Assembly (NCBI GenBank): GCA_003169655.1 | Contig: PNAZ01000126.1 | Location: 1-39,641, forward strand | Source: Chloroflexota bacterium | Lineage (GTDB): Bacteria > Chloroflexota > Limnocylindria > Limnocylindrales > CSP1-4 | Reading direction: 5' to 3' | DNA length: 39,641 bases | Shown: in pieces, positions 25,939-39,554 of the stretch | Layout: each line of letters starts with the position of its first letter | Numbering within the stretch: the first letter of the stretch is position 1 | Notes under the pieces: generated by a model | The model's input: the letters and a program-made list of their open reading frames with translations, nothing else | Told to the model about the DNA's origin: nothing | Database searches by the model: none | Made by a program: the position numbers and the translations under genes

Positions 25939-27609
25939 ATGCGCTCCACCCTCATCCGGGCCATTGGCCTGTTCGCCCTGGCGCTCGCGGTGCGGGTCCT
26001 GCTCCTGGTCCTCTATCCGGACCCGGCGTACGTCGATTCGTACTACTACGTCAACGTCGCCCGGGCACTCAGCGCGGGCCACGGCTTCTCGATCGACTTC
26101 ATCTGGACGTTCGTCGACGTCGGCGGCCACCTGCCCGCCAATCCGGTCCTGCCGATCCCGAGCAATGCCCACTGGATGCCGCTGGCCAGCCTGGTCCAGG
26201 TGCCGTTCATCCTGACCCTCGGGGCCACGGCCTTCGCGTCCGGCCTGCCCTTCGCCCTGATCGGCGCGCTGGCCGCGCCGATGACCTGGGCCTTCGCCCG
26301 GGAGGCCGGCTGCCGCCCGTCGGTTGCCGTCGGCGGTGCGATCCTGGCCGCGGTGCCGGCCGCGGTCACCCCGTTCATGGCCCAGCCCGACAACTTCGCC
26401 CTCTTCCAGGTCCTCGTCCTGGCGGCCCTGTGGCTCGGCGCCCGGGCGCTGCGGGGCGACGCCAGGGCCTTTGCGGCAACCGGGATCCTGGTCGGCCTGG
26501 CGACCCTCGCCCGGAACGACGGCGTCCTGGTGGGGGCCGCGCTGGCCCTGGTCTGGGCCTGGTCGCGGGTCCGCTTCCGGCGGGCCAGGCTCGGCGGCCA
26601 CTATGCGCCGCAGCCCCTGCCGATCTGGTCGGCCGTGGTCGGCGCGGTCCTGTTCCTGCTCGTGATGGCCCCCTGGGAGATGCGTCAGCTGGCCGTCTTC
26701 GGCAGCCTGTCACCTTCCTCGTCGACCGGCCGGATCCTGTTCATCCGCTCAATCGACGAGCTGAACAGCATCACCGGCACGCCCACCTTGAGCACCTTCC
26801 TGGCCCAGGGCATCGGGCCCCTGATCGCCAGCCGGCTGACCGGCTTCTTCGAGGCGATCGTGATCTTCAGCGTCCTGGTCGGCGGGGTCATCCTGACCCC
26901 GTTCATGGTGGCCGGGGCCTGGCTGCGACGCCATTCGGCCGACTTCCTGCCGTTCTTCCTGTACACCGTGCTGCTGTTCGCGTTCTCCGGGCTCGTCTCG
27001 GCGGTCCACGTGCCCAACGGCACGTTCATCCACTCGGGCGCCGCCCTTGCTCCGCAGGCGTACCTGCTGGCCCTCGAGGCGGTCGTCGCCCTCGTCGCCT
27101 GGGTCGCTCGCCACCGGCCAAGCTGGAACGCCGAATCAGCCGGCCGGGTCTTTGTCGGCGGGCTCGTCGGGATCAGCCTGGTCGGCGCGCTCTACTTCAC
27201 GGCCAACGTCCACGACACGTGGGGCCATGAGCGCGACCTCGACCAGGCCGTCGGCGCGGCTCTGGGCGCCCACGGCGCGGCGCCCGACGACGTGGTGATG
27301 AGCCTCGACACGGGCGCGATCAAGTACTGGACCGGCCACCCGGGGGTGGTCGCCCCGAATGACCCGATCACGACCATCGAATCCGTGGCTCGGGCGTATG
27401 ACGTCCGCTGGCTGTACGTGGAGCGCGCGGACGCCGTCCCCGCGCTCGGCCCGATCCTCGACGGCAGCGGCCGGCCGGGCTGGGTCGGCGCGCCGGTCTG
27501 GAGCGTCACCGGGACCGCGGCCACGATCGATGCCGGCCTGTATCCGGTCTGCTTCACGACGAGCGACCCGCGCTGCGTGGTCGTGGCCGGCGTGGGTGGT
27601 GGCTCGTGA
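25939..27609 (+). CDS. Multi-spanning membrane glycosyltransferase, GT39/ArnT-like
   Basis: A 556-residue polytopic membrane protein. After the first membrane segment comes an acidic external loop (YVDSYYYVNVARALSAGHGF, about 34-53) typical of PMT/ArnT-type GT-C enzymes. Then come about ten hydrophobic segments, a TLARNDGVLVG motif near residue 195, and a C-terminal external domain of about 150 residues. The ATG at 25939 is preferred over GTG at 25930 because of the -10-like TACGGT. It is 4 nt overlapped by a related gene (GTGA), and the two share the same layout. They are probably tandem paralogues that act on the same lipid-linked sugar acceptor. Confidence 0.78.
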   Translation: MRSTLIRAIGLFALALAVRVLLLVLYPDPAYVDSYYYVNVARALSAGHGFSIDFIWTFVDVGGHLPANPVLPIPSNAHWMPLASLVQVPFILTLGATAFASGLPFALIGALAAPMTWAFAREAGCRPSVAVGGAILAAVPAAVTPFMAQPDNFALFQVLVLAALWLGARALRGDARAFAATGILVGLATLARNDGVLVGAALALVWAWSRVRFRRARLGGHYAPQPLPIWSAVVGAVLFLLVMAPWEMRQLAVFGSLSPSSSTGRILFIRSIDELNSITGTPTLSTFLAQGIGPLIASRLTGFFEAIVIFSVLVGGVILTPFMVAGAWLRRHSADFLPFFLYTVLLFAFSGLVSAVHVPNGTFIHSGAALAPQAYLLALEAVVALVAWVARHRPSWNAESAGRVFVGGLVGISLVGALYFTANVHDTWGHERDLDQAVGAALGAHGAAPDDVVMSLDTGAIKYWTGHPGVVAPNDPITTIESVARAYDVRWLYVERADAVPALGPILDGSGRPGWVGAPVWSVTGTAATIDAGLYPVCFTTSDPRCVVVAGVGGGS

Positions 27610-29276
27610 GCGGCTCGTTCCGCTGGGCGCCCAGCCGGCGTGAGGCCTGGGGCACGGTGGCGGCGCTGTTTGCCTTCGCCCTGCTGGTCCGCCTCGCGTT
27701 CGCCCGGACGGTGCCTTTCCCGACCCCCGAGGACACGGCCTATTACGTGATGGTCGCCCGCAACCTGGTCGACGGCCACGGCCTGACCAGTGACGCCCTG
27801 TGGAGCTTCCAGACGCCGCCGTTGTCGTTCCCGCGACCGGCCTTCGAGGTATGGCTACCGCTGCCCACCCTGTTGATTGCCCTGCCGATGCTCGTCTTCG
27901 GGACGTCGTTCGCCGTGGCCCAGCTGCCGGCCCTGCTCGTCGGCGCCCTCCTGCCGGCGCTGGCCTGGCGGCTGGGAGCCGACGTGGCGGCCGAGCTTGG
28001 CCTGCCCACCGGCCGGGCCCGAACGCTGGCCCTCGGGGTCGGCCTGACGGCGGCCGTCGAGCTGCCCCTCGTCCTGTTCAGCGCCCTGCCCGATTCGACC
28101 AGCGTCTTCGCCGCCCTGGTGCTCGGCGCCTGCCTCCTGATCCCGCGCCTCCTGCGCGACCCGCGCGGCGCCCGGATCGCCGATCCGCGGCTCCTCGGGC
28201 TGGGCGTCCTGATCGGGCTGGCCGCCCTCGCCCGCAACGAGGCGCTGTGGCTGGCCATGGCCTGGGCGAGTCTGGCCTGGTTCACCGCCCGCGATCCGGC
28301 CGGCGTCCGCCTGGCCCGGGCCGAGCGGCTCCGACTGATCGTCATTCCGGCCGTCGCCGCCCTGGTCGTGTTCGGACCCTGGATGGTCCGCGACTGGCTG
28401 GTCTTCGGCAATCCGCTGCCCGGCCAGGCGGCCGCCAACGCCCTGTCGGTGTCCGGCTTCGACATCTTCGCCTGGAGCGATCCACCCACCCTGGCGCGCT
28501 ACCTGGCGGTGGGCATCGGGACCCTGGTCCAGATGCGGATCGACGGCTTCAGCCACAACCTGCTCAGCGTCCTGCTCGTGCCGAGCTTCCCGATCGGCTT
28601 GATCGGCCTGCTCCGCCTGCCCTGGACGGCGGGCATCCGGGCACTTCGGCCCCTGCTCCTCGTGTCGCTGCTGACCTTCTGGGTCACCACCCTGCTCTTC
28701 CCGGTGGCGACCACCTGGGGCACCTTTCTGCACGCGGCCGGCCCGGTCCATATCCTGCTGATCGTGGCCTGCCTGCTCGGTCTGGACGCCCTGTTTGCCC
28801 GGGTCAGCACCTGGCGGGGCTGGACCAACCAGGTGGCCTGGCTGGGGGCGACCCTGACGATCGCCAGCGCGATCCTGTTCAGCCTGAGCCTTGCCGGCTA
28901 CGGCGGGCAGAGCACCGACGTCGCCAACCGCTACCAGGCGCTCGAGGCCCAGATGGCCGCGATCGGGCGACCGCTGGACCAGGCCGCCGGCCCGGTGATC
29001 AGCGACTTCCCGATCTGGCTCGCCTACCAAACCGGGATCCACACCCTGGCCCTGCCCGATGAGCCACCGAGTTCGGTCGTCGACCTGGCCGCCCACTTTC
29101 CGGGCACCCACTACCTCGTGATCAGCGACGTCCACGGCAGCTGGCCGGCCGTCCTGTCGAGCGCCGACGCCGACGTGAGCTGTTTTCACGAGGTCGCCCT
29201 CGGCGTGCCACCTGACCCCAGCGCAGCGGCGGCCCTGAACGGCACCCGGGTCTTCGAGATCGGATGTGGGCCATGA
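27606..29276 (+). CDS. Multi-spanning membrane glycosyltransferase, GT39/ArnT-like, tandem paralogue
   Basis: A 556-residue membrane protein of the same length and layout as the gene before it. Its first loop is EDTAYYVMVARNLVDGHGL, with the same D-x-x-YY-V-x-VAR-L pattern, and the later motif ALARNEALWLA corresponds to TLARNDGVLVG in the partner. About ten membrane segments are followed by an external C-terminal domain that ends with paired cysteines. The GTG start overlaps the preceding stop by 4 nt. The downstream histidine-kinase gene begins 23 nt after its stop with its own -10-like element. Confidence 0.78.
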   Translation: MSGSFRWAPSRREAWGTVAALFAFALLVRLAFARTVPFPTPEDTAYYVMVARNLVDGHGLTSDALWSFQTPPLSFPRPAFEVWLPLPTLLIALPMLVFGTSFAVAQLPALLVGALLPALAWRLGADVAAELGLPTGRARTLALGVGLTAAVELPLVLFSALPDSTSVFAALVLGACLLIPRLLRDPRGARIADPRLLGLGVLIGLAALARNEALWLAMAWASLAWFTARDPAGVRLARAERLRLIVIPAVAALVVFGPWMVRDWLVFGNPLPGQAAANALSVSGFDIFAWSDPPTLARYLAVGIGTLVQMRIDGFSHNLLSVLLVPSFPIGLIGLLRLPWTAGIRALRPLLLVSLLTFWVTTLLFPVATTWGTFLHAAGPVHILLIVACLLGLDALFARVSTWRGWTNQVAWLGATLTIASAILFSLSLAGYGGQSTDVANRYQALEAQMAAIGRPLDQAAGPVISDFPIWLAYQTGIHTLALPDEPPSSVVDLAAHFPGTHYLVISDVHGSWPAVLSSADADVSCFHEVALGVPPDPSAAAALNGTRVFEIGCGP

Positions 29277-29285
29277 GCGGCCCTC

Positions 29286-29291
29286 TATACT
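29286..29291 (+). promoter_or_regulatory. -10 element TATACT, predicted leaderless promoter of the kinase operon
   Basis: TATACT lies 8 nt before the ATG at 29300, in the 23-nt gap after the membrane protein gene. No convincing -35. It also supports the 29300 start over 29264. Confidence 0.5.
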
Positions 29292-29299
29292 CGCCGGAC

Positions 29300-30391
29300 A
29301 TGGACGGCACGCGCGCCGAGGCACGGGACGGGCGAATCGACGAGCTGCATGCCGAGGCCAAGGCGGCGGTTGGCTACGCTGCGGACACGGTCCGCCAGAT
29401 CGCCGACCGCTATCGGCTGGTCCAGCACGAAGAGCTCGGCCGGCTGCAGGCCGTGAACGATGACCTGCGCTCCGGCAAGCGCCGCAAGCCGGGCGCCGCC
29501 GACAAAGGCGCCTCATCCAATGCGGCCGCCGCGGTGGCGGCCGAGGCCGGCGCGGAAGATCGCCGGCGGCGGGCCCTGCAGGTCGATGCCGAGAACCTGA
29601 CCACGGCCGCCGGCCAGCACCAGTCGGAGCTGAACCGGCTCGATGTGGCCCTGCGCAGCCTGGAGCGGATCTGGCTGTTCCTGGGGCGCGACGACGCGAC
29701 CCTGATCAGCGACACCGCGGCGGTGGCCAGCTCAACCGAGCTCAACATGCGGATTGTCGAGGCCCAGGAAGCCGAGCGACTGCGGCTCGTCCGCGAAGTC
29801 CATGACGGCCCCGCCCAGGCCCTCTCCAACGCGATCTTCCAGCTCGACTACGTCGAGCGGGTCATCATCGACGATCCCAACGTGGCGGCCCACGAGCTCG
29901 AGCTGCTCGGCGCCCGGCTGCGCCGCGAGCTGGGTGACGTGCGCGGCTTCATCAGCCAGCTCCGGCCGCCGCTGCTGGCCGAGCTCGGCCTGGCGGGCTC
30001 GATCGGCGATGCCGTCGAGACCTTCACGGCCCTGTCCGGCATCCCTGTCGTGACCGACATCGGGGGCGGCGGCGAGGGGCTCAACGAGGCCGCCCAGACG
30101 GTCGCCCTGCGGATCGTCCAGGAGGCGCTCCAGAACATCCGCAAGCACGCCGCCTCCGAGAGCGTCTCGGTCGCCACCCGGATCGAGGGATCCGACTGGG
30201 TCCTCGAGGTCCGCGATGACGGGCGGGGCTTCGACATCGGCTCGATGGCCGCCCGCGGGCGGCGCAATTTCGGGCTGCAATTCATGCGCGAGCGAGCCGA
30301 GCTGATCGGTGCTCGTTTTGACGTTGGTTCCAGGCCCAATGGGGGCACCATCGTGACGTTGGCAATCCCGCTCCAGAAGGAGAACGAATGA
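29300..30391 (+). CDS. Cytoplasmic histidine kinase, DegS/NarL-type (HisKA_3)
   Basis: A 363-residue soluble sensor kinase without a membrane segment or PAS domain. Residues 1-60 and 85-165 look helical and coiled-coil, with an Ala-rich linker between. The phosphoacceptor is His168 in REVHDGPAQAL, as in the HisKA_3 family. The HATPase_c domain is intact: the N box QEALQNIRKHA with Asn279, DDGRGF at 306-311 and the following RRNFGLQFMRERA. The input is likely a cytoplasmic or protein-partner signal. The ATG of the response regulator overlaps its stop by 4 nt (ATGA), so the two are a pair. Confidence 0.92.
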   Translation: MDGTRAEARDGRIDELHAEAKAAVGYAADTVRQIADRYRLVQHEELGRLQAVNDDLRSGKRRKPGAADKGASSNAAAAVAAEAGAEDRRRRALQVDAENLTTAAGQHQSELNRLDVALRSLERIWLFLGRDDATLISDTAAVASSTELNMRIVEAQEAERLRLVREVHDGPAQALSNAIFQLDYVERVIIDDPNVAAHELELLGARLRRELGDVRGFISQLRPPLLAELGLAGSIGDAVETFTALSGIPVVTDIGGGGEGLNEAAQTVALRIVQEALQNIRKHAASESVSVATRIEGSDWVLEVRDDGRGFDIGSMAARGRRNFGLQFMRERAELIGARFDVGSRPNGGTIVTLAIPLQKENE

Positions 30392-31134
30392 CCGCAATGG
30401 ACTACCTCGGCCCGGATCGGCGACGGGGCGGACCCGATCGCCGAACCGTGGGCGAGATCACCAAGATCCTCCTTGTCGACGACCATGCCCTGTTCCGAAT
30501 GGGGATGCGCGGCCTGCTCGAGCGCGAGCCGGACTTCGAGATCGTGGGCGAGGCCCAGGACAGCCGCGGCGCGGTTGACCTGGCCATGGAAATGTCACCC
30601 GACATCGTCCTGATGGACCTCTCGCTGCCGCCTCCCGGCGGGATCGAGACCACCCAGCGGATCAAGCGCGAGCTGCCCTCGGTGGGGATCATCGTGCTGG
30701 CCGTCAGCGAGGACGAGGACGCCCTGTTCGACGCGATCAAGGCCGGTGCGGCCGCCTTCATCCTCAAGGATGTCGGCCCGGACGACCTGGTCACGATCAT
30801 CCGCCGGGTCACCGCCGGCGAGTACCTGATCAACGACAAGGTCTTCGCCAAGCCGGCCGTCGCCAGCCGCGTCCTGAAGGAGTTCCGCGAGCTGGCCGTC
30901 TATGGCCAGGAAGCGGCCCCGATCTTCGCCCCGCTGTCACCGCGCGAGGTCGAGATCCTCGACAACATCGCCCAGGGGATGACCAACAAGCAGGTCGCCT
31001 ACGCGCTGTCGATCAGCGAGCAGACGGTCAAGAACCACATGTCGAGCATCCTCCGGAAGCTCAGCGTGAACGATCGAACCCAGGCCGTCGTCTACGCGAT
31101 GCGCCAGGGCTGGATCAGGATGCCCGAGGATTGA
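30388..31134 (+). CDS. NarL/FixJ-family response regulator
   Basis: A 248-residue transcription regulator, partner of the preceding kinase. The receiver domain (about residues 26-145) has the acidic pair Asp31-Asp32, the phosphoacceptor Asp77 in VLMDLSLP and Lys127 in ILKDVGP. The C-terminal LuxR-type helix-turn-helix begins at LSPREVEILDNIAQGMTNKQVA, about 183-204, and continues into SEQTVKNHMSSILRKL. An extra basic N-terminus of about 20 residues (RRRGGPDRR) is unusual and may aid DNA binding. AAGGAG lies before the ATG. Its position suggests the pilus genes downstream as targets; that is inference. Confidence 0.93.
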   Translation: MTAMDYLGPDRRRGGPDRRTVGEITKILLVDDHALFRMGMRGLLEREPDFEIVGEAQDSRGAVDLAMEMSPDIVLMDLSLPPPGGIETTQRIKRELPSVGIIVLAVSEDEDALFDAIKAGAAAFILKDVGPDDLVTIIRRVTAGEYLINDKVFAKPAVASRVLKEFRELAVYGQEAAPIFAPLSPREVEILDNIAQGMTNKQVAYALSISEQTVKNHMSSILRKLSVNDRTQAVVYAMRQGWIRMPED

Positions 31135-32339
31135 CCGAGCCCCAGCCGGTGGCAGCCAGTGATCCCGGCGCCTTCGCCGACCGGATCGCAGCGGAGCTCG
31201 CCACCCTCGACTCCGAGCTGGTCGAGATCGACCTGCTGATCCAGCAGGCCCGCACAGAGGCCGACCGCCACGAGATGAAGCGGAGCCAGACGGCCGACCG
31301 GGTCGCGACGCTCCGGGGCGCCGCCACGCCCAATCCGACCGACCTCGCCGAGGCCGCCAGCCAGCTCGTCCAGCTGACCCGCCGGGCGGTCATGATGGAG
31401 TCCCAGGTCGACGTCCTGCAGGGCAAGCAGAAGGCCCTCGGCCGCTACCGCGAAGCCCTCGAGCGCTATGGCGGCCAGATGCGCGAGCTCGCCACGAGCG
31501 GCGGCTGGGTCGCGCCGAGCGGTCAGTCGAACTCGACCGGCGGGCCAGGATCGAGCGGCGGGGCGGATGACGGCGACATCCCGGCGGCCGTCTCGCGGAT
31601 CGTGCTGACCGCCCAGGAAGACCTGCGCCGGGACATCGCCCGGGCCATGCACGATGGGCCGGCCCAGAGCCTGACCAACATCGTCCTCCAGGCCCAGATC
31701 GTCGATCGCCTCGTCGATCGCGACCCGGCCCTTGCCCGGACCGAGGTCAAGGCCCTGATCGCGATGGTCCAGACCACCCTCGAGGCGACGAAGTCGTTCA
31801 TCTTCGACGTCCGGCCGATGGTCCTCGACGACCTCGGCCTGGTGCCCACCCTCCGGCGGACCGCGCGTGAGCGCGGCCGGCGGGCACAGATCGCAGTCGA
31901 CTTCGACTCGATGGGCACCGATCGCCGGCTGGCGATGGAGCTCGAGAGCGGCCTCTTCCGGATGATCGATCAGGCCCTCGCGGGATTCCTGTCGACGGCC
32001 CCCCGGCGGGTGCTGATCCGCCTCGACTGGGGCGACCAGATCGAGGCCCGGATCGCCGCCCACGGCGAGGCGCCGGCCGCTCCACCCGAGGTGGCCGCGC
32101 CGGCGGCCGATGGCTCGGCGCCCAGCGTCGAGGCCGTCGACGCGCTGGAGGCCCAGCCCAGCCACGTCCTGCCGGCCAAGGCCTGGCGCGAGATCCAGCA
32201 GCGGGCCTCGACCCTGGGCATCGTGGCCGAGCTCCTGGCCGGAGGCACCGAGGTCCGCCTGGTTGCCAACCCGACGTTCGAAGACGGACCGATCGCCGGC
32301 ACCGGCAGCCCGGCCGGCTTGACCGCCGACGCGAGCTGA
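31131..32339 (+). CDS. Histidine-kinase-like protein with degenerate ATP-binding domain
   Basis: A 402-residue soluble protein in the same family as the kinase at 29300. Residues 15-120 form a long helical region, followed by a Gly/Ser-rich linker. The phosphoacceptor motif is kept: His174 in RRDIARAMHDGPAQSLTNI. The ATP-binding part is not: the N box position reads RMIDQALAGFL, with Gly where Asn is expected. The expected DDGRGF site is replaced by an Ala/Pro-rich stretch (about 311-330). So it may not bind ATP and could act as a phosphate acceptor, scaffold or inhibitor. The start is TTG, overlapping the regulator's stop by 4 nt; GTG at 31149 is the alternative. Confidence 0.82.
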   Translation: MTEPQPVAASDPGAFADRIAAELATLDSELVEIDLLIQQARTEADRHEMKRSQTADRVATLRGAATPNPTDLAEAASQLVQLTRRAVMMESQVDVLQGKQKALGRYREALERYGGQMRELATSGGWVAPSGQSNSTGGPGSSGGADDGDIPAAVSRIVLTAQEDLRRDIARAMHDGPAQSLTNIVLQAQIVDRLVDRDPALARTEVKALIAMVQTTLEATKSFIFDVRPMVLDDLGLVPTLRRTARERGRRAQIAVDFDSMGTDRRLAMELESGLFRMIDQALAGFLSTAPRRVLIRLDWGDQIEARIAAHGEAPAAPPEVAAPAADGSAPSVEAVDALEAQPSHVLPAKAWREIQQRASTLGIVAELLAGGTEVRLVANPTFEDGPIAGTGSPAGLTADAS

Positions 32340-32357: not shown

Positions 32358-32513
32358 ATGGTCGAGCCAGGCGCCTCGCGCCGCAAGCCTGCCGCGATCG
32401 TCGACTACGCGATCATCGGGCTGCTGACCCTGGCCCTGATCGGGATCCTGCTCGTCTTCCTGCGCGACCAGGTGGCGACGATCCTGGCCTGGATCACCGG
32501 CCTGATCGGCTGA
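32358..32513 (+). CDS. 51-residue Flp-like microprotein
   Basis: A short ORF between the kinase-like gene and the pilin genes. It encodes a basic N-terminus (GASRRKPAA) followed by DYAIIGLLTLALIGILLVFL and a short tail ending in TGLIG. The core aligns with the Flp pilins: DYAII for EYALI, then a hydrophobic helix, then DQVATIL for GQVSKIL. The Gly and Glu of the prepilin cleavage site are Pro and Asp here, so processing by prepilin peptidase is doubtful. It begins 18 nt after the previous stop, with no clear ribosome site. It is either a pilin-like membrane peptide or an old pilin copy. Confidence 0.6.
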   Translation: MVEPGASRRKPAAIVDYAIIGLLTLALIGILLVFLRDQVATILAWITGLIG

Positions 32514-32624: not shown

Positions 32625-32795
32625 ATGCAGCTCTTCAACTCGTTCCTCGCGCGGTTCAGCCGCGACGAGGAAGGTCAGGGACTCGCCGAGTACGCCCTGA
32701 TCCTCGCCCTCATCGCGATCGTCGCGATCATCGCCCTCATCTTCCTGGGCGGACAGGTCTCGAAGATCCTCAGCAACGTTGGTAACTCGGTCTAG
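32625..32795 (+). CDS. Flp/Fap-type pilin, copy 1
   Basis: A 56-residue type IVb pilin. The prepilin motif is EEGQGLAEYALI: cleavage would follow Gly17, placing Glu22 at position 5 of the mature protein, as in all Flp pilins. One hydrophobic helix runs to about residue 41, then GGQVSKILSNVGNSV. The first 14 residues differ from copies 2 and 3, while everything from the cleavage site on is identical in protein to copy 3. The ATG at 32625 follows AGGAGG at 32610-32615; a longer frame from 32571 has no such site. A strong terminator follows the gene, so it can be expressed separately. Confidence 0.9.
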   Translation: MQLFNSFLARFSRDEEGQGLAEYALILALIAIVAIIALIFLGGQVSKILSNVGNSV

Positions 32796-32828
32796 GACCG
32801 CAGCTCGCTCGAGCTGACCATGATCAAG

Positions 32829-32866
32829 CGCCGGACCGAGCTTTCTCGGTCCGGCGTTTGCCTTTG
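32829..32866 (+). terminator. Rho-independent terminator after flp copy 1
   Basis: A perfect 12-bp stem, CGCCGGACCGAG (32829-32840) and CTCGGTCCGGCG (32845-32856), with a 4-nt CTTT loop, is followed by TTTGCCTTT. A second small palindrome, CAGCTCG-CT-CGAGCTG, sits at 32801-32816 just after the stop. Confidence 0.85.
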
Positions 32867-32872
32867 GCAGGC

Positions 32873-32900
32873 TTGACAGGCCCGCCAACCCGTCTCTACC
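32873..32900 (+). promoter_or_regulatory. Candidate promoter of flp copy 2
   Basis: A perfect TTGACA at 32873-32878 is followed, 16 nt on, by TCTACC at 32895-32900. It lies directly after the terminator of copy 1. Copy 3 has a similar pair, which supports a real element. Confidence 0.5.
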
Positions 32901-32941
32901 GTAACCCGGCCCTCGCCCCAACGGCGACGGGACCCCGAAGG

Positions 32942-32950
32942 AAAGGAGGT
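32942..32950 (+). promoter_or_regulatory. Ribosome-binding site of flp copy 2 (AAAGGAGGT)
   Basis: AAAGGAGGT is complementary to the 3' end of 16S rRNA along its whole length and lies 11 nt before the ATG at 32962. It decides this start against an out-of-frame ATG at 32952. Confidence 0.85.
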
Positions 32951-32961
32951 AATGGACCACC

Positions 32962-33135
32962 ATGACGAGCTACATCTCTGCACTGATCGCATCGTTCCGA
33001 TCCGACGACGAAGGCCAGGGTCTGGCCGAGTACGCCTTGATCCTCGCCCTGATCGCGATCGTCGCGATCATCGCCCTGATCTTCCTGGGCGGACAGGTTT
33101 CGAAGATCCTGAGCCAGGTCGGCAACTCGGTCTAG
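32962..33135 (+). CDS. Flp/Fap-type pilin, copy 2
   Basis: A 57-residue pilin: MTSYISALIASF leader, prepilin motif DEGQGLAEYALI with cleavage after Gly18 and Glu23 at mature position 5, one hydrophobic helix, then the tail GGQVSKILSQVGNSV. It differs from copy 3 at one residue only (Gln for Asn in the tail), though by my count the two genes differ at 13 of 174 bases, nearly all silent. It has its own promoter candidate and a near-perfect ribosome site. Flp pilins assemble into the thin Tad pilus used for surface attachment. A processing peptidase is not in the window. Confidence 0.92.
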   Translation: MTSYISALIASFRSDDEGQGLAEYALILALIAIVAIIALIFLGGQVSKILSQVGNSV

Positions 33136-33205
33136 GACACCCTGCTCCGGTCGGTCGAGTGCCGCCCGGAGCGGCCTGGACGCACCGCTTTTCCAATAGA
33201 CCTTA

Positions 33206-33232
33206 TTGACAGCGCACGGGGCTTTTTCTAGC
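33206..33232 (+). promoter_or_regulatory. Candidate promoter of flp copy 3
   Basis: TTGACA at 33206-33211 with TCTAGC at 33227-33232, a 15-nt spacer. It resembles the copy 2 promoter (TTGACA then TCTACC). The spacing is short, so the exact -10 is uncertain. Confidence 0.45.
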
Positions 33233-33246
33233 CTGACGCGCGGCCC

Positions 33247-33277
33247 GGCTCCTGGACCCAGCTTGAGTCCAGGAGCC
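33247..33277 (+). promoter_or_regulatory. Leader hairpin upstream of flp copy 3
   Basis: A perfect 11-bp inverted repeat, GGCTCCTGGAC (33247-33257) and GTCCAGGAGCC (33267-33277), with a 9-nt loop. It sits between the promoter candidate and the ribosome site. It is followed by AAACATTG rather than a run of T, so it is not a classical terminator. It could stabilise the mRNA or bind a regulator. Confidence 0.6.
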
Positions 33278-33341
33278 AAACATTGCGACCAGCTCTCGTC
33301 GGATGGCGAGGGACTTTGACGGAAAGGAGGTAATCCATCAC

Positions 33342-33515
33342 ATGACGAGCTACATCTCTGCACTCATTGCTTCGTTCCGCTCCGACGACGAAGGCCAGGG
33401 TCTGGCTGAATACGCCCTGATCCTCGCCCTCATCGCGATCGTCGCGATCATCGCCCTGATCTTCCTGGGCGGACAGGTTTCGAAGATCCTTAGCAACGTC
33501 GGTAATTCGGTCTAG
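33342..33515 (+). CDS. Flp/Fap-type pilin, copy 3
   Basis: A 57-residue pilin with the same leader as copy 2, prepilin motif DEGQGLAEYALI and tail GGQVSKILSNVGNSV. From the cleavage site on, its protein is identical to copy 1. GGAAAGGAGGT at 33321-33331 lies 10 nt before the ATG at 33342; the frame is open to 33303 but lacks a site there. It is the last pilin before cpaB. A 10-bp inverted repeat at 33525-33548 follows, with only a weak T tract. Confidence 0.92.
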   Translation: MTSYISALIASFRSDDEGQGLAEYALILALIAIVAIIALIFLGGQVSKILSNVGNSV

Positions 33516-33802
33516 GACCGCAGGTCGGCCGGCCACTGGGCCGGTCGATTGTTGGGTCGAAACTGACGGGCGGCGTCGTCCCTCTGGGGGACGGCCCGCT
33601 CGTTCTGTTTCGGTCCGGTCCGGGGTGGCGACGCACCAGCCGCGGGCGTCGTGGAGATCGATGCGGATCACCTTGCAACAAGTTTGCGGTCCGCTTGATT
33701 TCCGGCCATTTCTTCCTAATGGTCCTAGCCCTTTGGTATAGTCGCGCGGCCTTTGGGCGGTGCTACAGTGGTGCCACTTGTCACACGGCTGGGGAGAGTA
33801 GT
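33516..33802 (+). other. Intergenic region between flp copy 3 and cpaB
   Basis: A 287-nt gap with no gene. It holds two inverted repeats: TCGGCCGGCC with GGCCGGTCGA at 33525-33548 (one wobble pair), and CGTCCC with GGGACG at 33577-33593, followed by CGTTCTGTTT. Either may end pilin transcription, but neither has a good T run. TATAGT at 33737-33742 is the best -10 for cpaB, with TTCCTA 18 nt upstream as a weak -35. GGGGAGAG at 33791-33798 is the ribosome site of cpaB. Confidence 0.5.
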
Positions 33803-34869: not shown

Positions 34870-36111
34870 ATGGCAGACAAGATCCGCGTCCTCATCGTCG
34901 ACGACATCAGCGAGACCCGCGATCACCTGGCGAGGCTACTTGGCTTCGAGACTGACATGGAGATCGTGGGCCTGGCCGAGTCGGGACGGCGCGCCATCGA
35001 GCTCGCCATCGAGCTCAAGCCTGACATTGTCCTGATGGACATCAACATGCCGGACATGGACGGGATCGAAGCAACCGAGCAGCTCTCGGCCCAGGTGCCG
35101 GGCGCGTCGGTCGTCATGATGTCGGTCCAGGGCGAAGCCGACTACCTCCGCCGGTCGATGCTGGCCGGGGCGCGGGAGTTCCTGGTCAAGCCCTTCAGCT
35201 CCGACGAGCTGACCTCCTCAATTCGACAGATCTACGCGCGGGAGCGAGAGAAGCTCGAGCGCTTCCCGGTCGCCGTGGCAGCTCCGGCCATCATCCCGGA
35301 CGTCGATCCGGGCCAGGTCATCGCGGTCTTCGGACCAAAGGGCGGCATCGGCCGAACCACGATCGCGGTCAACCTCGCGGTTGCCGCGGCCTCCGAGCTC
35401 GGTCAGCGGACCGCCCTGGTTGACGGCTCGTTCCAGTTCGGGGACGTTGGCGTCCTGCTCAACCTCAATCCCAAGAACAAGTCGATCGCCGATCTCGCGC
35501 CCGACCTCGAGGCCGGCCTCGAGCTCGAGTCGATCGACCCATTCCTGACGGTCCATTCCTCGGGGGTCAAGGTCCTCCTCGCACCGCCCACGCCGGAGAT
35601 GGCCGAGCTGGTCACCCCGGTCGGCGTGCGCAAGGTCCTCGAGCTCCTCCGCCGGACCAACGACCTGATCGTCGTTGACTGCTCATCGTCGATGGCCGAC
35701 ACGACCCTGGCCATCCTCGACCAGGCCGATGTGATCCTGACGATGCTCACCCTCGAAATCACGAGCATCAAGAACATGCGCCTGTTCCTGGAAGTGACCG
35801 ATCAGCTGGGCTACGACTCCAGCTCGATCAGGCTCGTTCTCAACCGGGCCGACTCGACCCTCGGGATCCGCGTGGCGGACGTCGAGCAGTCGATCGGGCG
35901 CAAAGTCGACCATACAATTGTGAGTGACGGTCGCAGCGTGGTTTACGCTCTCAACCGTGGGATCCCATTCTTCATGAGCAACCGGGAGGCCCAGGTGTCG
36001 CAGGATATCCTCCGGCTCGCAACTTCATTGACCAGCGACGAGCGCAAACCAGCTACCGAGGGCGCCCGCAAGGCCACGCCCGCCAAGAAGAGCCTGTTCG
36101 CATGGCGCTAG
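34870..36111 (+). CDS. cpaE: CpaE/TadZ-like protein: receiver domain plus ParA-type ATPase
   Basis: A 413-residue cytoplasmic protein that in other species places the Tad pilus at its site on the membrane. The N-terminal receiver domain is complete: Asp11-Asp12, phosphoacceptor Asp57 in VLMDINMP and Lys107 in LVKPFS. The C-terminal part is a MinD/ParA-like ATPase. Its deviant Walker A site reads GPKGGIGRTT (156-164): the signature Lys157 is kept but the second lysine is Arg162. The A' segment LVDGSFQFGDVG and LIVVDCSSS follow. Loss of the P-loop lysine is known in some TadZ proteins. An intact receiver suggests that phosphorylation, perhaps by the kinase upstream, controls it. Confidence 0.88.
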   Translation: MADKIRVLIVDDISETRDHLARLLGFETDMEIVGLAESGRRAIELAIELKPDIVLMDINMPDMDGIEATEQLSAQVPGASVVMMSVQGEADYLRRSMLAGAREFLVKPFSSDELTSSIRQIYAREREKLERFPVAVAAPAIIPDVDPGQVIAVFGPKGGIGRTTIAVNLAVAAASELGQRTALVDGSFQFGDVGVLLNLNPKNKSIADLAPDLEAGLELESIDPFLTVHSSGVKVLLAPPTPEMAELVTPVGVRKVLELLRRTNDLIVVDCSSSMADTTLAILDQADVILTMLTLEITSIKNMRLFLEVTDQLGYDSSSIRLVLNRADSTLGIRVADVEQSIGRKVDHTIVSDGRSVVYALNRGIPFFMSNREAQVSQDILRLATSLTSDERKPATEGARKATPAKKSLFAWR

Positions 36112-36176: not shown

Positions 36177-37595
36177 ATGTCCCTGCTGAAGCGGATTGAG
36201 AGTGCTCGACCCGGGACGAGTGGTCCCGGTGTGGCACCGGGCAATGCCCCGGCGCCGACTGGAGGCGCGCCCGGGGCTCCCGGGCAGCCACCGGCAACGC
36301 CGGCCCAGCGACTCATGTCGTCCACGGGTCCAGTTCGGGAATCCTTCCGGGACGTCAAGTTCCGGATCCAGAGCCGGGTGATCCAGGACCTGGACCCCAA
36401 GCTCGACCTGTCCAACCAGGTCGAGGTCCGGCGTCAGATCGAGGAGATCTTCGGCAAGGTCATCGACGAGGAAGGCCTCGCCCTGACCCGGGCCGAGCGC
36501 GTCCGGATGCTGGAGCAGATCACCGACGAGATCATCGGCCTCGGTCCGCTCGAGCCGCTCCTGCGCGACGAGAGCATCACCGAGATCATGGTCAACGGAC
36601 CGCGCCAGGTCTACATCGAGCGGTCGGGCAAGCTGGAGCTGACCAACGTGGTCTTCCAGAACGACGATCACGTGATGCGGATCATCGACCGGATCATTGC
36701 CCCGATCGGCCGCCGCGTCGACGAGTCGTCGCCGATGGTCGACGCTCGACTGACCGACGGCTCCCGGGTGAACGCGATCATCCCGCCGCTGTCGCTGGTC
36801 GGCCCGGTCATCACGATCCGGAAGTTCTCGGCGTCGCCGTTCACGGTCGACGATCTGGTCCGTTTCGGAACGGCCACCCCCGAGATGTTCGACTTCCTCA
36901 AGGCGTGCGTCGAAGCCCGCCTCAACATCTTCGTGTCGGGCGGCACCGGCTCGGGCAAGACCACCACCCTCAACGTGCTGTCGTCGTTCATCCCCAACGA
37001 TGAGCGGATCGTGACGATCGAGGACGCGGCCGAGCTGCAGCTCCGCCAGGAGCACGTCGTGACTCTCGAGTCGCGGCCTCCGAACATCGAGGGCAAGGGC
37101 GCCGTCCCGATCCGGGAGCTCGTCCGCAACGCCCTCCGGATGCGGCCCGACCGGATCATCGTCGGGGAGTGCCGTTCGGGCGAAGCGCTCGATATGCTCC
37201 AGGCCATGAACACCGGCCATGACGGTTCGATGTCGACGGGCCACGCCAACTCGCCCCGGGACATGCTGTCCCGACTCGAGACGATGGTCCTGATGGCCGG
37301 CGTGGACCTGCCCCTGCGGGCCATCCGCGAGCAGGTCGCCTCGGCCGTTGACCTGATTGTTCAGCAGAGCCGGCTCAAGGACGGCACCCGCAAGATCGTG
37401 AACATCACCGAGATCCAGGGGATGGAAGGTGACGTGATCGTGATGCAGGATGTCTTCGTGTTCGAGCAGACCGGTATCGTCGAAGGCAAGATCATTGGCC
37501 GGCTCAAGCCGACCGGGATCCGGCCGAAGTTCGTCGAGAAGTTCGAAGTGATGGGGATCGCCCTGCCTCCGGGCCTGTTCGGCTTCGCGTACTAA
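36177..37595 (+). CDS. cpaF: Tad pilus assembly ATPase CpaF (TadA)
   Basis: A 472-residue secretion ATPase that powers Flp pilus assembly at the inner face of the membrane. The N-terminus (about 1-50) is a Pro/Gly/Ala-rich linker. The family segment with LLRDESITEIMVNG is at about 127-140. The catalytic domain has the Walker A SGGTGSGKTTTLN at about 258-270, the Asp box with EDAAELQL at about 282-289, and the Walker B region with RPDRIIVGECRSGEAL. A GHDGSMSTGHANS segment follows, as in all CpaF proteins. GGAAGGGG at 36161-36168 is the probable ribosome site. It is followed by tadB after 22 nt. Confidence 0.95.
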   Translation: MSLLKRIESARPGTSGPGVAPGNAPAPTGGAPGAPGQPPATPAQRLMSSTGPVRESFRDVKFRIQSRVIQDLDPKLDLSNQVEVRRQIEEIFGKVIDEEGLALTRAERVRMLEQITDEIIGLGPLEPLLRDESITEIMVNGPRQVYIERSGKLELTNVVFQNDDHVMRIIDRIIAPIGRRVDESSPMVDARLTDGSRVNAIIPPLSLVGPVITIRKFSASPFTVDDLVRFGTATPEMFDFLKACVEARLNIFVSGGTGSGKTTTLNVLSSFIPNDERIVTIEDAAELQLRQEHVVTLESRPPNIEGKGAVPIRELVRNALRMRPDRIIVGECRSGEALDMLQAMNTGHDGSMSTGHANSPRDMLSRLETMVLMAGVDLPLRAIREQVASAVDLIVQQSRLKDGTRKIVNITEIQGMEGDVIVMQDVFVFEQTGIVEGKIIGRLKPTGIRPKFVEKFEVMGIALPPGLFGFAY

Positions 37596-37617
37596 CTGGC
37601 GGGACAGGAGAGATTCG

Positions 37618-38622
37618 ATGCAGACCAGCTTGATCGTCGCGATCGTTGCCGCGGGAGCAGTCATCCTGATTGCCCTCGGACTGGCGATGTCCGGCGGTGG
37701 CTCAGGCGTCAGCGCCCGGCTGGAACGCTATGCGTCCGGCAAGCCTGACGCCAAGTCCGGCGGCTCCGGCGGAATCGGGGAGATGCTCAACCAGAGCGTG
37801 GCCCTGGCCAACCTCAACCGGGTGGTCGAGCAGCGCGACTTCGGGGCCAACCTGGCCCGGGACATCGCCCGGGCGGACCTCCACCTCAAGATCAGCGAGT
37901 ACTTCATGATCTGGATCGGCACCACCCTCGGGGTGCCGGCCGTCATGTTCGCCGCCTCGATCGTCTTCCCGGCCCTGGCCAACCCGTTCCTGCTCCTGAT
38001 CGGGGGCCTGATCGGGTTCGCCATCCCCCGCTTCTGGCTCGGCCGGCGGCGGAGCGGCCGCCTGAACCAGTTCAACAAGCAGCTGCCCGACACGATCACC
38101 CTGATCGCCAACGGCCTGCGCGCCGGTTCGTCGTTCCTGCAGGCGATCGAGCTGGTCGTCCGCGAAGCGCAGCCGCCGATCTCGACCGAGTTCGCCCGGG
38201 TGATCCGGGAAGTGAACCTCGGACTCGCCTTCGACGAAGCCCTCGAGAACATGGTCCGGCGCGTCCGGTCCGATGACCTCGAGCTGATGGCCACGGCCAT
38301 CTCGATCCAGCACAACGTGGGCGGCAACCTGGCCGAGATCCTCGACTCGATTGCCTACACCATCCGTGAGCGGGTCAGGATCAAGGGCGAGATCCGCACC
38401 CTGACCGCCCAGCAGCGCCTGTCGGGCTACGTCGTCGGCTTCCTGCCGATCGGGCTGGCCGGCTTCCTGTTCATCGCCGCGCCCGGCTTCATGGCCCCGA
38501 TGTTCGACGACTCGGTCAACATCGCCGGCCTGCCGGCTGGTGTCATCATCCTGATCTTCGGGGGTTTCATGATGTTCATGGGCTTCATGTTCATCCGCAA
38601 AATCGTCGACATCGAAGTCTGA
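37618..38622 (+). CDS. tadB: Tad pilus inner-membrane platform protein TadB
   Basis: A 334-residue type II secretion F-domain protein. One membrane segment at the N-terminus, a polar stretch (about 27-95), then two further segments before the T2SSF domain, which starts near RLNQFNKQLPDTITLIANGLRAG. The ISIQHNVGGNLAEILD segment is typical of TadB, and two C-terminal membrane segments follow. With TadC it forms the platform on which CpaF acts. ACAGGAGAG precedes the ATG. It runs into tadC with a 2-nt gap. Confidence 0.93.
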   Translation: MQTSLIVAIVAAGAVILIALGLAMSGGGSGVSARLERYASGKPDAKSGGSGGIGEMLNQSVALANLNRVVEQRDFGANLARDIARADLHLKISEYFMIWIGTTLGVPAVMFAASIVFPALANPFLLLIGGLIGFAIPRFWLGRRRSGRLNQFNKQLPDTITLIANGLRAGSSFLQAIELVVREAQPPISTEFARVIREVNLGLAFDEALENMVRRVRSDDLELMATAISIQHNVGGNLAEILDSIAYTIRERVRIKGEIRTLTAQQRLSGYVVGFLPIGLAGFLFIAAPGFMAPMFDDSVNIAGLPAGVIILIFGGFMMFMGFMFIRKIVDIEV

Positions 38623-38624
38623 CC

Positions 38625-39554
38625 ATGTTGCCTGTCATCCTGGTCGCCGCGGCAGCCGCGGGGGCCATCCTGCTCATCGTCACCGGACTGACGAGTGGTC
38701 GCACCGTCGACCCCGTCCAGGCCCGGCTCACCCAGCTTGGCACCATGCAGGCCAAGAACCTGGAGGAGCTCGAGCTCCAGGCGCCGTTCCTCGAGCGGAC
38801 GTTGCGGCCGCTGGCCGCCCGTCTGTCCGGCTCGGTCGCCCGGATCACCAGCACGTCGTTCGCCGATCGGACCGAGAAAAGCCTGGCCCTGGCCGGCAAT
38901 CCGGGCGACCTGCGAGTGGCCGACTGGCTGGGCATCAAGGCGGTCGTGGCGATCATCTTCGGGATCGTCTTCTTCCTGCTCTTTGCCGTCGTCAACATCC
39001 TCGGGATGCAGTTCCTGCTGGGCGTGGGGATGTCCCTGCTCGGCGTCGTGATCGGCTACATCGCGCCGGAGTTCTGGCTCGGTCGGCGGATCAAGGCCCG
39101 CCAGAAGGCCATCCTGCTGATGATCCCGGACACCCTCGACCTGCTGACCATCTCCGTGCGGGCCGGCCTCGGCTTCGACGCGGCGCTGGCCAAGGTGGTC
39201 GAGAAGCTCAAGGGCCCACTTTCCGACGAGTTCCGTCGGGCGCTGGCCGAGGTTCGCGTCGGCAAGAGCCGCCGGGAGGCGCTGCGCGACATCATCCCCC
39301 GCACGGAAGTCCCGCCGCTGACCAACTTCATCGGCGCGATCATCCAGGCCGAAACGCTCGGCGTGTCGATCTCCAAGGTGCTCCAGGTTCAGTCCGAGCA
39401 GCTCCGGATCGAGCGTCGCCAGCGGGCCGAGGAACAGGCGGCCAAGGCGCCGATCAAGATGCTCTTCCCGCTCGTCGGGTGCATCTTCCCGTCGCTGTTC
39501 ATCGTCATCCTCGGACCGGCCATCATCCTGATCGTCAAGAACCTGAAGGCCTGA
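38625..39554 (+). CDS. tadC: Tad pilus inner-membrane platform protein TadC
   Basis: A 309-residue T2SSF-domain protein, partner of TadB. It has an N-terminal membrane segment, a central pair, and the F domain with LMIPDTLDLLTISVRAGLGFDAAL and the later LTNFIGAIIQAETLGVSISKVL, a pattern typical of TadC. One or two C-terminal membrane segments close the protein. The ATG at 38625 is 2 nt after the tadB stop, so the pair is co-translated. About 87 nt follow before the window ends. Confidence 0.93.
   Translation: MLPVILVAAAAAGAILLIVTGLTSGRTVDPVQARLTQLGTMQAKNLEELELQAPFLERTLRPLAARLSGSVARITSTSFADRTEKSLALAGNPGDLRVADWLGIKAVVAIIFGIVFFLLFAVVNILGMQFLLGVGMSLLGVVIGYIAPEFWLGRRIKARQKAILLMIPDTLDLLTISVRAGLGFDAALAKVVEKLKGPLSDEFRRALAEVRVGKSRREALRDIIPRTEVPPLTNFIGAIIQAETLGVSISKVLQVQSEQLRIERRQRAEEQAAKAPIKMLFPLVGCIFPSLFIVILGPAIILIVKNLKA

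Follow-up and report, generated by a model that had tools for sequence, protein, structure and literature searches.

A HisKA_3 pseudokinase with an invariant phospho-histidine and phosphatase motif in a Tad-linked kinase-regulator trio of Chloroflexota

What does a histidine kinase do when it has lost the motifs that bind ATP, keeps its phospho-accepting histidine, and lies between a regulator that it shares with an intact paralogue and the genes of an adhesive pilus? The question is raised by a 39,641-nucleotide stretch of DNA from a Chloroflexota bacterium (contig PNAZ01000126.1, analysed at its full length and here called the window), where the gene order is HK1 - RR - HK2 - three Flp pilin genes - CpaB - CpaE - CpaF - two T2SSF proteins. 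Known degenerate histidine kinases are mostly single cases (ChpT, Spo0B, PhyT, DivL), and an HK1-RR-HK2 trio was not described in any paper that our search on Tad and two-component systems in Chloroflexota brought up. The new element here is a HisKA_3 pseudokinase that occurs naturally and is conserved, within a proposed split module, together with recurrent breakage and a parallel drift of the regulator: at one operon position, in one phylum and beside one machine, a natural series runs from two intact kinases to loss of the ATP boxes, of the His, of both, or of the phosphatase motif. Whether kinase and phosphatase are split between paralogues is therefore directly testable, as is the question of why a pseudokinase is kept once the receiver of its regulator degenerates.

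A conserved trio beside Tad genes

All genes of the window described below lie on the + strand. HK1 (29264..30391) is a HisKA_3 histidine kinase with intact N, G1 and G2 boxes, identified by Pfam (HisKA_3 and HATPase_c, the latter at 8.1e-13) and by alignment, which shows QEALQN, DDGRGF and GLQFMRERAE; an earlier note on this DNA had rightly credited this neighbour with the N-box Asn and DDGRGF. RR (30388..31134) is a NarL-type response regulator with a receiver and a GerE/LuxR HTH (Pfam), which in the alignment keeps the phospho-acceptor Asp77 (30616..30618) and has Ala105 (30700..30702) in place of the conserved receiver Thr/Ser. The start of HK2 (31131..32339, 402 aa, predicted TTG start; Pfam, ORF and alignment) overlaps the RR stop by 4 bases. 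Further downstream, CpaE (34870..36111) joins a ParA/MinD-type ATPase to a receiver that is canonical (D,D,D,S,K) by Pfam and residue alignment, as had been claimed for it, and is a candidate second receiver partner. The Tad core (36177..39554; Pfam) comprises the CpaF ATPase (36177-37595) and T2SSF platform proteins (37618-38622 and 38625-39554). This gene order suggests that RR may control the pilus genes.

Several smaller features surround the trio. Directly 3' of HK2, at 32358-32513 (+), a 51-aa one-helix protein resembles a divergent Flp pilin without GQGLxEY, and short Flp-like ORFs occur 3' of HK2 in several relatives too. Between HK2 and CpaB, three near-identical Flp pilin genes stand in tandem (32625-33520, +). 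Upstream of HK1 the window encodes a large, hydrophobic protein that matches nothing in Pfam (27606-29276, +), and in the sister lineage the trio is preceded by glycosyltransferase-like membrane proteins (L102:287-1798; L100:10938-12344; L numbers are labels of loci), so that a membrane or hydrophobic protein upstream of the trio may be a conserved linkage.

All sequences compared come from MAGs or draft genomes. A class-wide search (E up to 1e-12), in which some matches are HK1 genes and class-level counts rest on a sample, found an HK2 relative in 130 of 177 genomes, and a second collection gave 66 loci with HK2 relatives, nearly all labelled Chloroflexi/Chloroflexota, although some loci of the two collections may be one genome under two labels. 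In the window's family, f1, the order HK1-RR-HK2 was read in 50/57 loci, the remainder being cut or incomplete, and a Tad gene lies downstream in 43, among them every locus with over 4.5 kb of readable sequence. Conservation of the trio next to Tad loci in related genomes, which the earlier note had named as a check, is borne out by these counts. In the sister lineage, f3/f4, the trio lies away from Tad genes, which occur elsewhere in the same genomes, and no two-component genes of the trio type were found beside those f3/f4 Tad genes. Family f5 has HK1-RR-Tad, and HK2 was not found there. Genomes of order f2 (about 1.1 Mb) have neither the trio nor CpaF and, because CpaF is absent there as well, are uninformative on whether the trio exists without Tad.

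Lost ATP-binding motifs on a fold retained in the model

The N-terminal part of HK2 (31164..31496) consists of two long helices (residues 12-63 and 69-122), a coiled-coil-like input region by sequence and by an AlphaFold2 model (pLDDT about 90-98), and no transmembrane segment was seen there in either. It precedes the DHp domain (residues 152-235; 31584..31835), the most conserved part of the protein as judged by Pfam, model, alignment and dN/dS, in which H174-D175-G-P-A-Q179 (31650..31667; H/D/Q tally) unites the phospho-accepting His with the HisKA_3 phosphatase motif DxxxQ. The His174 codon (31650-31652) falls within MHDGPAQSL, and the 402-residue frame carrying both is present as first described. 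Pfam assigns HisKA_3 (PF07730) at E 2e-12, with 47.9 bits against a curated cut-off of 24, and the H-[DE]-x-x-x-Q motif reads HDGPAQ in all readable HK2 homologues of the class.

Degeneration is seen in the CA (HATPase) domain (residues 250-380; 31878..32270; alignment, model and Foldseek), whose core is kept and whose ATP-contacting boxes are lost. Its N-box reads FRMIDQALAGF against QELLNN/QEALQN in intact relatives, and alignment with these places Gly285 (31983..31985; aligned residue tally of 55 homologues) at the N-box Asn and Gln281 at the preceding Glu. An Ala/Pro-rich disordered insert (residues 309-348; 32055..32174), with pLDDT about 50-60 and relaxed selection (lid/tail w up to 0.79), replaces the G1 box and the ATP lid, and the protein reads AAHGEAPAAPPEVAAPAADGSAPS at the DDGRGF position. 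The Gly and the Ala/Pro-rich stretch had both been noticed earlier, and both are seen in the alignment. No Pfam match to HATPase_c was returned for the window protein at E up to 1. Membership of other families was considered as well: no ChpT family is among its Pfam matches at E up to 1, Spo0B is likewise absent from them, and a place in the PhyT/PhyP (HRxxN) family does not agree with a DHp motif that reads HDGPAQ, not HRxxN.

The same state extends across the homologues. All of the aligned HK2 proteins (59/59) match HisKA_3 and none (0/59) matches HATPase_c among the matches listed, whereas HK1 homologues match both in 36/36, and chance is excluded as the cause of the absence because of this difference. 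In the residue tallies, which count related sequences as rows and not as independent events, f1 HK2 proteins have H, D+1 and Q+5 in 53/53 readable rows; the N-box Asn position holds Gly in 35, Ala in 19 and Ser in 1 (n=55), the G1 Asp is kept in 1/55, and the G2 box is gapped in 52/55. The f3/f4 proteins likewise keep H/D/Q in 10/10 and have Glu for the N-box Asn in 10/10, with a remnant of G1 in L102 (TDGKDL) and L107 (SDGKDL). By comparison, all nine tallied positions are kept in 66/66 HK1 proteins of the class, and the N-box Asn is present in 56/58 HK2-type kinases outside it. By its motifs, HK2 is a degenerate HisKA_3 kinase without the means to bind ATP in the usual way.

The fold was nonetheless retained in the predictions. 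The AlphaFold2 model of HK2, built on 59 sequences (mean pLDDT 81, pTM 0.50), shows the two long helices at the N-terminus followed by a DHp hairpin; its CA-like domain, with core pLDDT above 90 and a lid at about 50-60, follows the Bergerat (GHKL) order: E255-261, H269-287, E293-300, E304-311, H349-362, E365-369, E374-379. DesK structures were the best Foldseek matches (E 5.0e-8), DesK is also the nearest solved structure by profile (6.3e-7), and CA-only structures matched as well (DesK 3ehg, TMt 0.74; VraS 4gt8, TMt 0.69). Lower matches included Brucella-type ChpT (4qpj, 4qpk) and the RetS-GacS complex 7n0e; the entry title of 4qpj reads only 'phosphotransferase', and the protein is ChpT according to PMC5231405. 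Whole-chain TM-scores were modest, as would be expected of a model with several domains of uncertain placement. The fold is likewise present in a model of HK2 from f3/f4 (3ehg, TMt 0.79), and profile-profile comparison of the HK2 CA region with intact CA domains gave a weak match for f1 (82%) and a firm one for f3/f4 (97.5%). As modelled, the CA fold persists though the ATP motifs are gone; the earlier note was right about the motifs, and the persistence of the fold is a correction to it.

Might HK2 be an unusual active kinase, with an altered pocket that still binds ATP or another nucleotide? The Bergerat-like core of the model would allow it, as would the N-box Glu, retained in 46/55 f1 homologues (Gln in the window). 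We consider this very improbable, since the N, G1 and G2 boxes and the lid are all absent in f1 and HATPase_c was matched neither by the window protein nor, among the matches listed, by its 59 homologues; use of ATP by HK2 appears very unlikely from its sequence. A decaying pseudogene, or an artefact of sequencing or binning, was also considered, as the contigs are from MAGs and several HK2 homologues have an in-frame TGA inside the matched stretch. Full-length frames are open in dozens of independent assemblies, and close HK2 pairs gave dN/dS of 0.01-0.13 for DHp, 0.04-0.28 for the CA core (one pair without an estimate) and 0.13-0.79 for lid/tail, with 22/84 invariant columns in DHp and 5/62 in the CA core. 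These estimates indicate that the part of HK2 touching the regulator is kept under strong purifying selection; because of this, and of the frames open across assemblies, we reject decay or artefact as so improbable that it can be set aside.

Origin, recurrent breakage and drift of the regulator

In a tree of the DHp region, HK2 proteins of f1 and f3/f4 group (99/95) with the intact Tad-linked kinases that occur singly in Anaerolineae-type genomes, and HK1 proteins form a separate clade (97/96). HK2 as a copy of HK1 was rejected on this grouping with kinases of other Chloroflexota. A wider tree places several families on the HK1 side, which has moderate support (87/82), and several on the HK2 side, and family f23 has trios of two intact kinases beside Tad genes (L191, L193); for these reasons the trio is probably older than the class, with the kinase function of HK2 probably lost in the lineage leading to f1 and f3/f4. 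A recent, lineage-specific loss of the ATP motifs was rejected, the loss being common to f1 and f3/f4, where it represents one or two events, the tree being compatible with either.

Breakage recurs beyond these lineages. At least 6 changes to a degenerate CA are required by the tree, 5 if a single one is common to f1 and f3/f4, in a topology where L211 and L248 have long branches and insecure placement. In L197, the HK2 His is changed to Gln, with CA and DxxxQ kept; in L248 (9315-9995, +), a 226-aa HK2 next to an intact HK1 and Tad genes has Arg for His, has lost the CA boxes and keeps DxxxQ. L211 (8686-9426, -) is the mirror case: there the pseudokinase is HK1, with Ser for His, the CA lost and DxxxQ retained, and it stands with an intact HK2. 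The HK2 proteins of L192 and L203 have a broken DxxxQ, with His and CA kept. Single Tad-linked kinases in L210 (7492-8550) and L099/L215 have lost the N-box Asn and keep H and DxxxQ, and no second kinase was seen in their operons. Among all these broken kinases, DxxxQ is the feature most often retained.

The regulator has changed in parallel. Outside the class, RR receivers have D,D,D,T,K in 47/50. Most f1 regulators have Ala for the Thr, and 5 have Ser. All those of f5 have Ala there and carry Gly or Glu at the second acidic position, which in f3/f4 is occupied by Ala, Pro or Ser; in f3/f4, moreover, Glu replaces the phospho-Asp in 8/9. Between f1 and f3/f4, RR identity is 0.40 in the receiver and 0.76 in linker plus HTH. 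The f3/f4 regulators (L100-L110, e.g. L102:5629-6333) are pseudo-receivers with linker and HTH nearly unchanged, and Ala stands for the receiver Thr/Ser in f1 and f5, as in the window RR and in L111-L116. The CpaE receiver reads D,D,D,S,K in 41/41 readable f1 loci, in 4/4 of f5 and in 18/19 elsewhere (the last one incomplete), and in 22/28 CpaE-like matches of f3/f4, the other six of which may be different CpaE-like copies. Judged by these residues, the CpaE receiver stays canonical where the RR receiver has degenerated.

Because RR drifts from a canonical receiver in this way (Ala for Thr in f1 and f5, Glu for Asp in most f3/f4 regulators), regulation by binding becomes plausible: HK2 could be a non-catalytic partner whose DHp holds RR, or whose CA-like domain reads the state of RR, acting by sequestration or allostery as DivL does in reading DivK in Caulobacter (PMC4211667). 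The far better conservation of linker plus HTH than of the receiver would agree with this. As an account of HK2 it is decidedly unlikely, given that the catalytic His, Asp and Gln are invariant and mere binding needs none of them. DivL is alike in being a former kinase that steers a pathway without kinase activity (PMC4211667, PMC9491836), and differs in that HK2 keeps His and DxxxQ and has lost the CA motifs instead.

The role of HK2

Judging by the residues retained, HK2 most likely either turns off the regulator or acts together with the neighbouring working kinase. More specifically, we tentatively favour HK1 as the kinase of the module and HK2 as a DHp phosphatase with a possible phospho-acceptor role, a reading to which we give somewhat less than an even chance. 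The ancestor of HK2 was an intact kinase in the Tad-linked trio, and the present protein has a DHp in front of an ATP-dead Bergerat-fold domain; unable to autophosphorylate, it would leave kinase activity to HK1, and its DHp would use Asp175 and Gln179 to strip phosphate from the shared RR, the kinase and phosphatase being divided between the two paralogues. It may act as a homodimer or by pairing with HK1, and in such a heterodimer His174 could also take phosphate from HK1.

Two points speak for a phosphatase. In each of three other lineages one paralogue has lost His and kept DxxxQ (HK2 of L197, HK2 of L248, HK1 of L211), and in HisKA_3 proteins, NarX among them, it is this motif that drives phosphatase activity, the matching Gln of DesK positioning the attacking water (PMC3510030, PMC5231405). 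Phosphatase activity alone fails to explain the invariant His174, since the His is dispensable for it in HisKA_3 proteins (PMC12632262). Also counting against it, the DxxxQ of f3/f4 HK2 would lack a substrate in RR because the phospho-Asp is lost there; L192 and L203 lost DxxxQ itself with His and CA retained; and a laboratory ChrS pseudokinase with a truncated CA behaved as phosphatase-deficient (PMC9491836).

These residues also bear on the earlier suggestion of a phosphorelay or a decoy that tunes the regulator. Tuning fits the invariant H/D/Q. A classical relay through RR is disfavoured because f3/f4 keeps the HK2 HDGPAQ though its RR lost the phospho-Asp, and for this reason back-transfer from RR to HK2 was put aside as a general function; a pure binding decoy is disfavoured because HK2 retains the catalytic DxxxQ.

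Alternatively, HK2 may be primarily a phospho-acceptor, either as the subunit of an HK1/HK2 heterodimer or as a dimeric histidine phosphotransferase: His174 would be trans-phosphorylated by the HK1 CA, and the phosphate would then go on to RR or to a different receiver, for example that of CpaE. This is favoured by a His174 that is invariant in 63/63 readable HK2 proteins of the class, is unneeded by HisKA_3 phosphatases, and persists in f3/f4, where RR can neither accept nor donate phosphate. HK1 is intact in every class member examined (66/66), the CpaE receivers of linked loci keep D,D,D,S,K, ChpT has the same architecture and takes and passes phosphate without using ATP (PMC3433190), and heterodimers of paralogous kinases are reported for ChrS/HrrS (PMC9491836). 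Set against these points, a degenerate paralogue lost its His and kept DxxxQ in three other lineages, and the DHp domains of HK1 and HK2 have diverged into separate clades; as the primary function, phospho-acceptance seems possible but rather unlikely. It is unlikely, too, that the Tad-linked system as a whole is turning into a module in which phosphate bypasses the usual RR route, with RR losing receiver residues, HK2 losing ATP and keeping His/Asp/Gln, and HK1, still a full kinase, sending phosphate, possibly via His174 of HK2, to a different receiver, for instance the canonical one of CpaE in the pilus machine.

ChpT, Spo0B and PhyT are precedents for kinases whose ATPase domain degenerated and which became phosphotransferases or negative regulators (PMC3433190, PMC5898713), and by analogy HK2 might work like these or like the ChrS variant. 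With ChpT (Caulobacter/Brucella) it shares a DHp and an ATP-dead CA-like domain with a replaced lid, a likeness of architecture only and not of membership, and it differs in its HisKA_3 DHp, in having no ChpT Pfam match and in an operon with a NarL-type RR and a kinase. PhyT/PhyP of the alphaproteobacterial general stress response also have a degenerate ATPase domain with the phospho-His kept and act as phosphotransferase or negative regulator (PMC5898713), but PhyP has an HRxxN motif, a predicted membrane anchor and a periplasmic sensor, whereas HK2 has HDGPAQ and no evident membrane segment. The ChrS pseudokinase of C. glutamicum is alike in its broken CA, its intact paralogous kinase and the single regulator (PMC9491836); it evolved in the laboratory by a frameshift, whereas HK2 is natural, old and family-wide and keeps a whole CA fold. 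The likeness to DesK/NarX lies in a HisKA_3 DHp carrying H-D-x-x-x-Q, a NarL-type regulator as partner and DesK as the nearest structure. HK2 shares their phosphatase residues, the acidic residue and the Gln of DxxxQ (Asp175 and Gln179, both invariant), and differs from them in having no ATP-binding boxes or lid, a soluble N-terminal helical pair and an intact paralogue in its operon.
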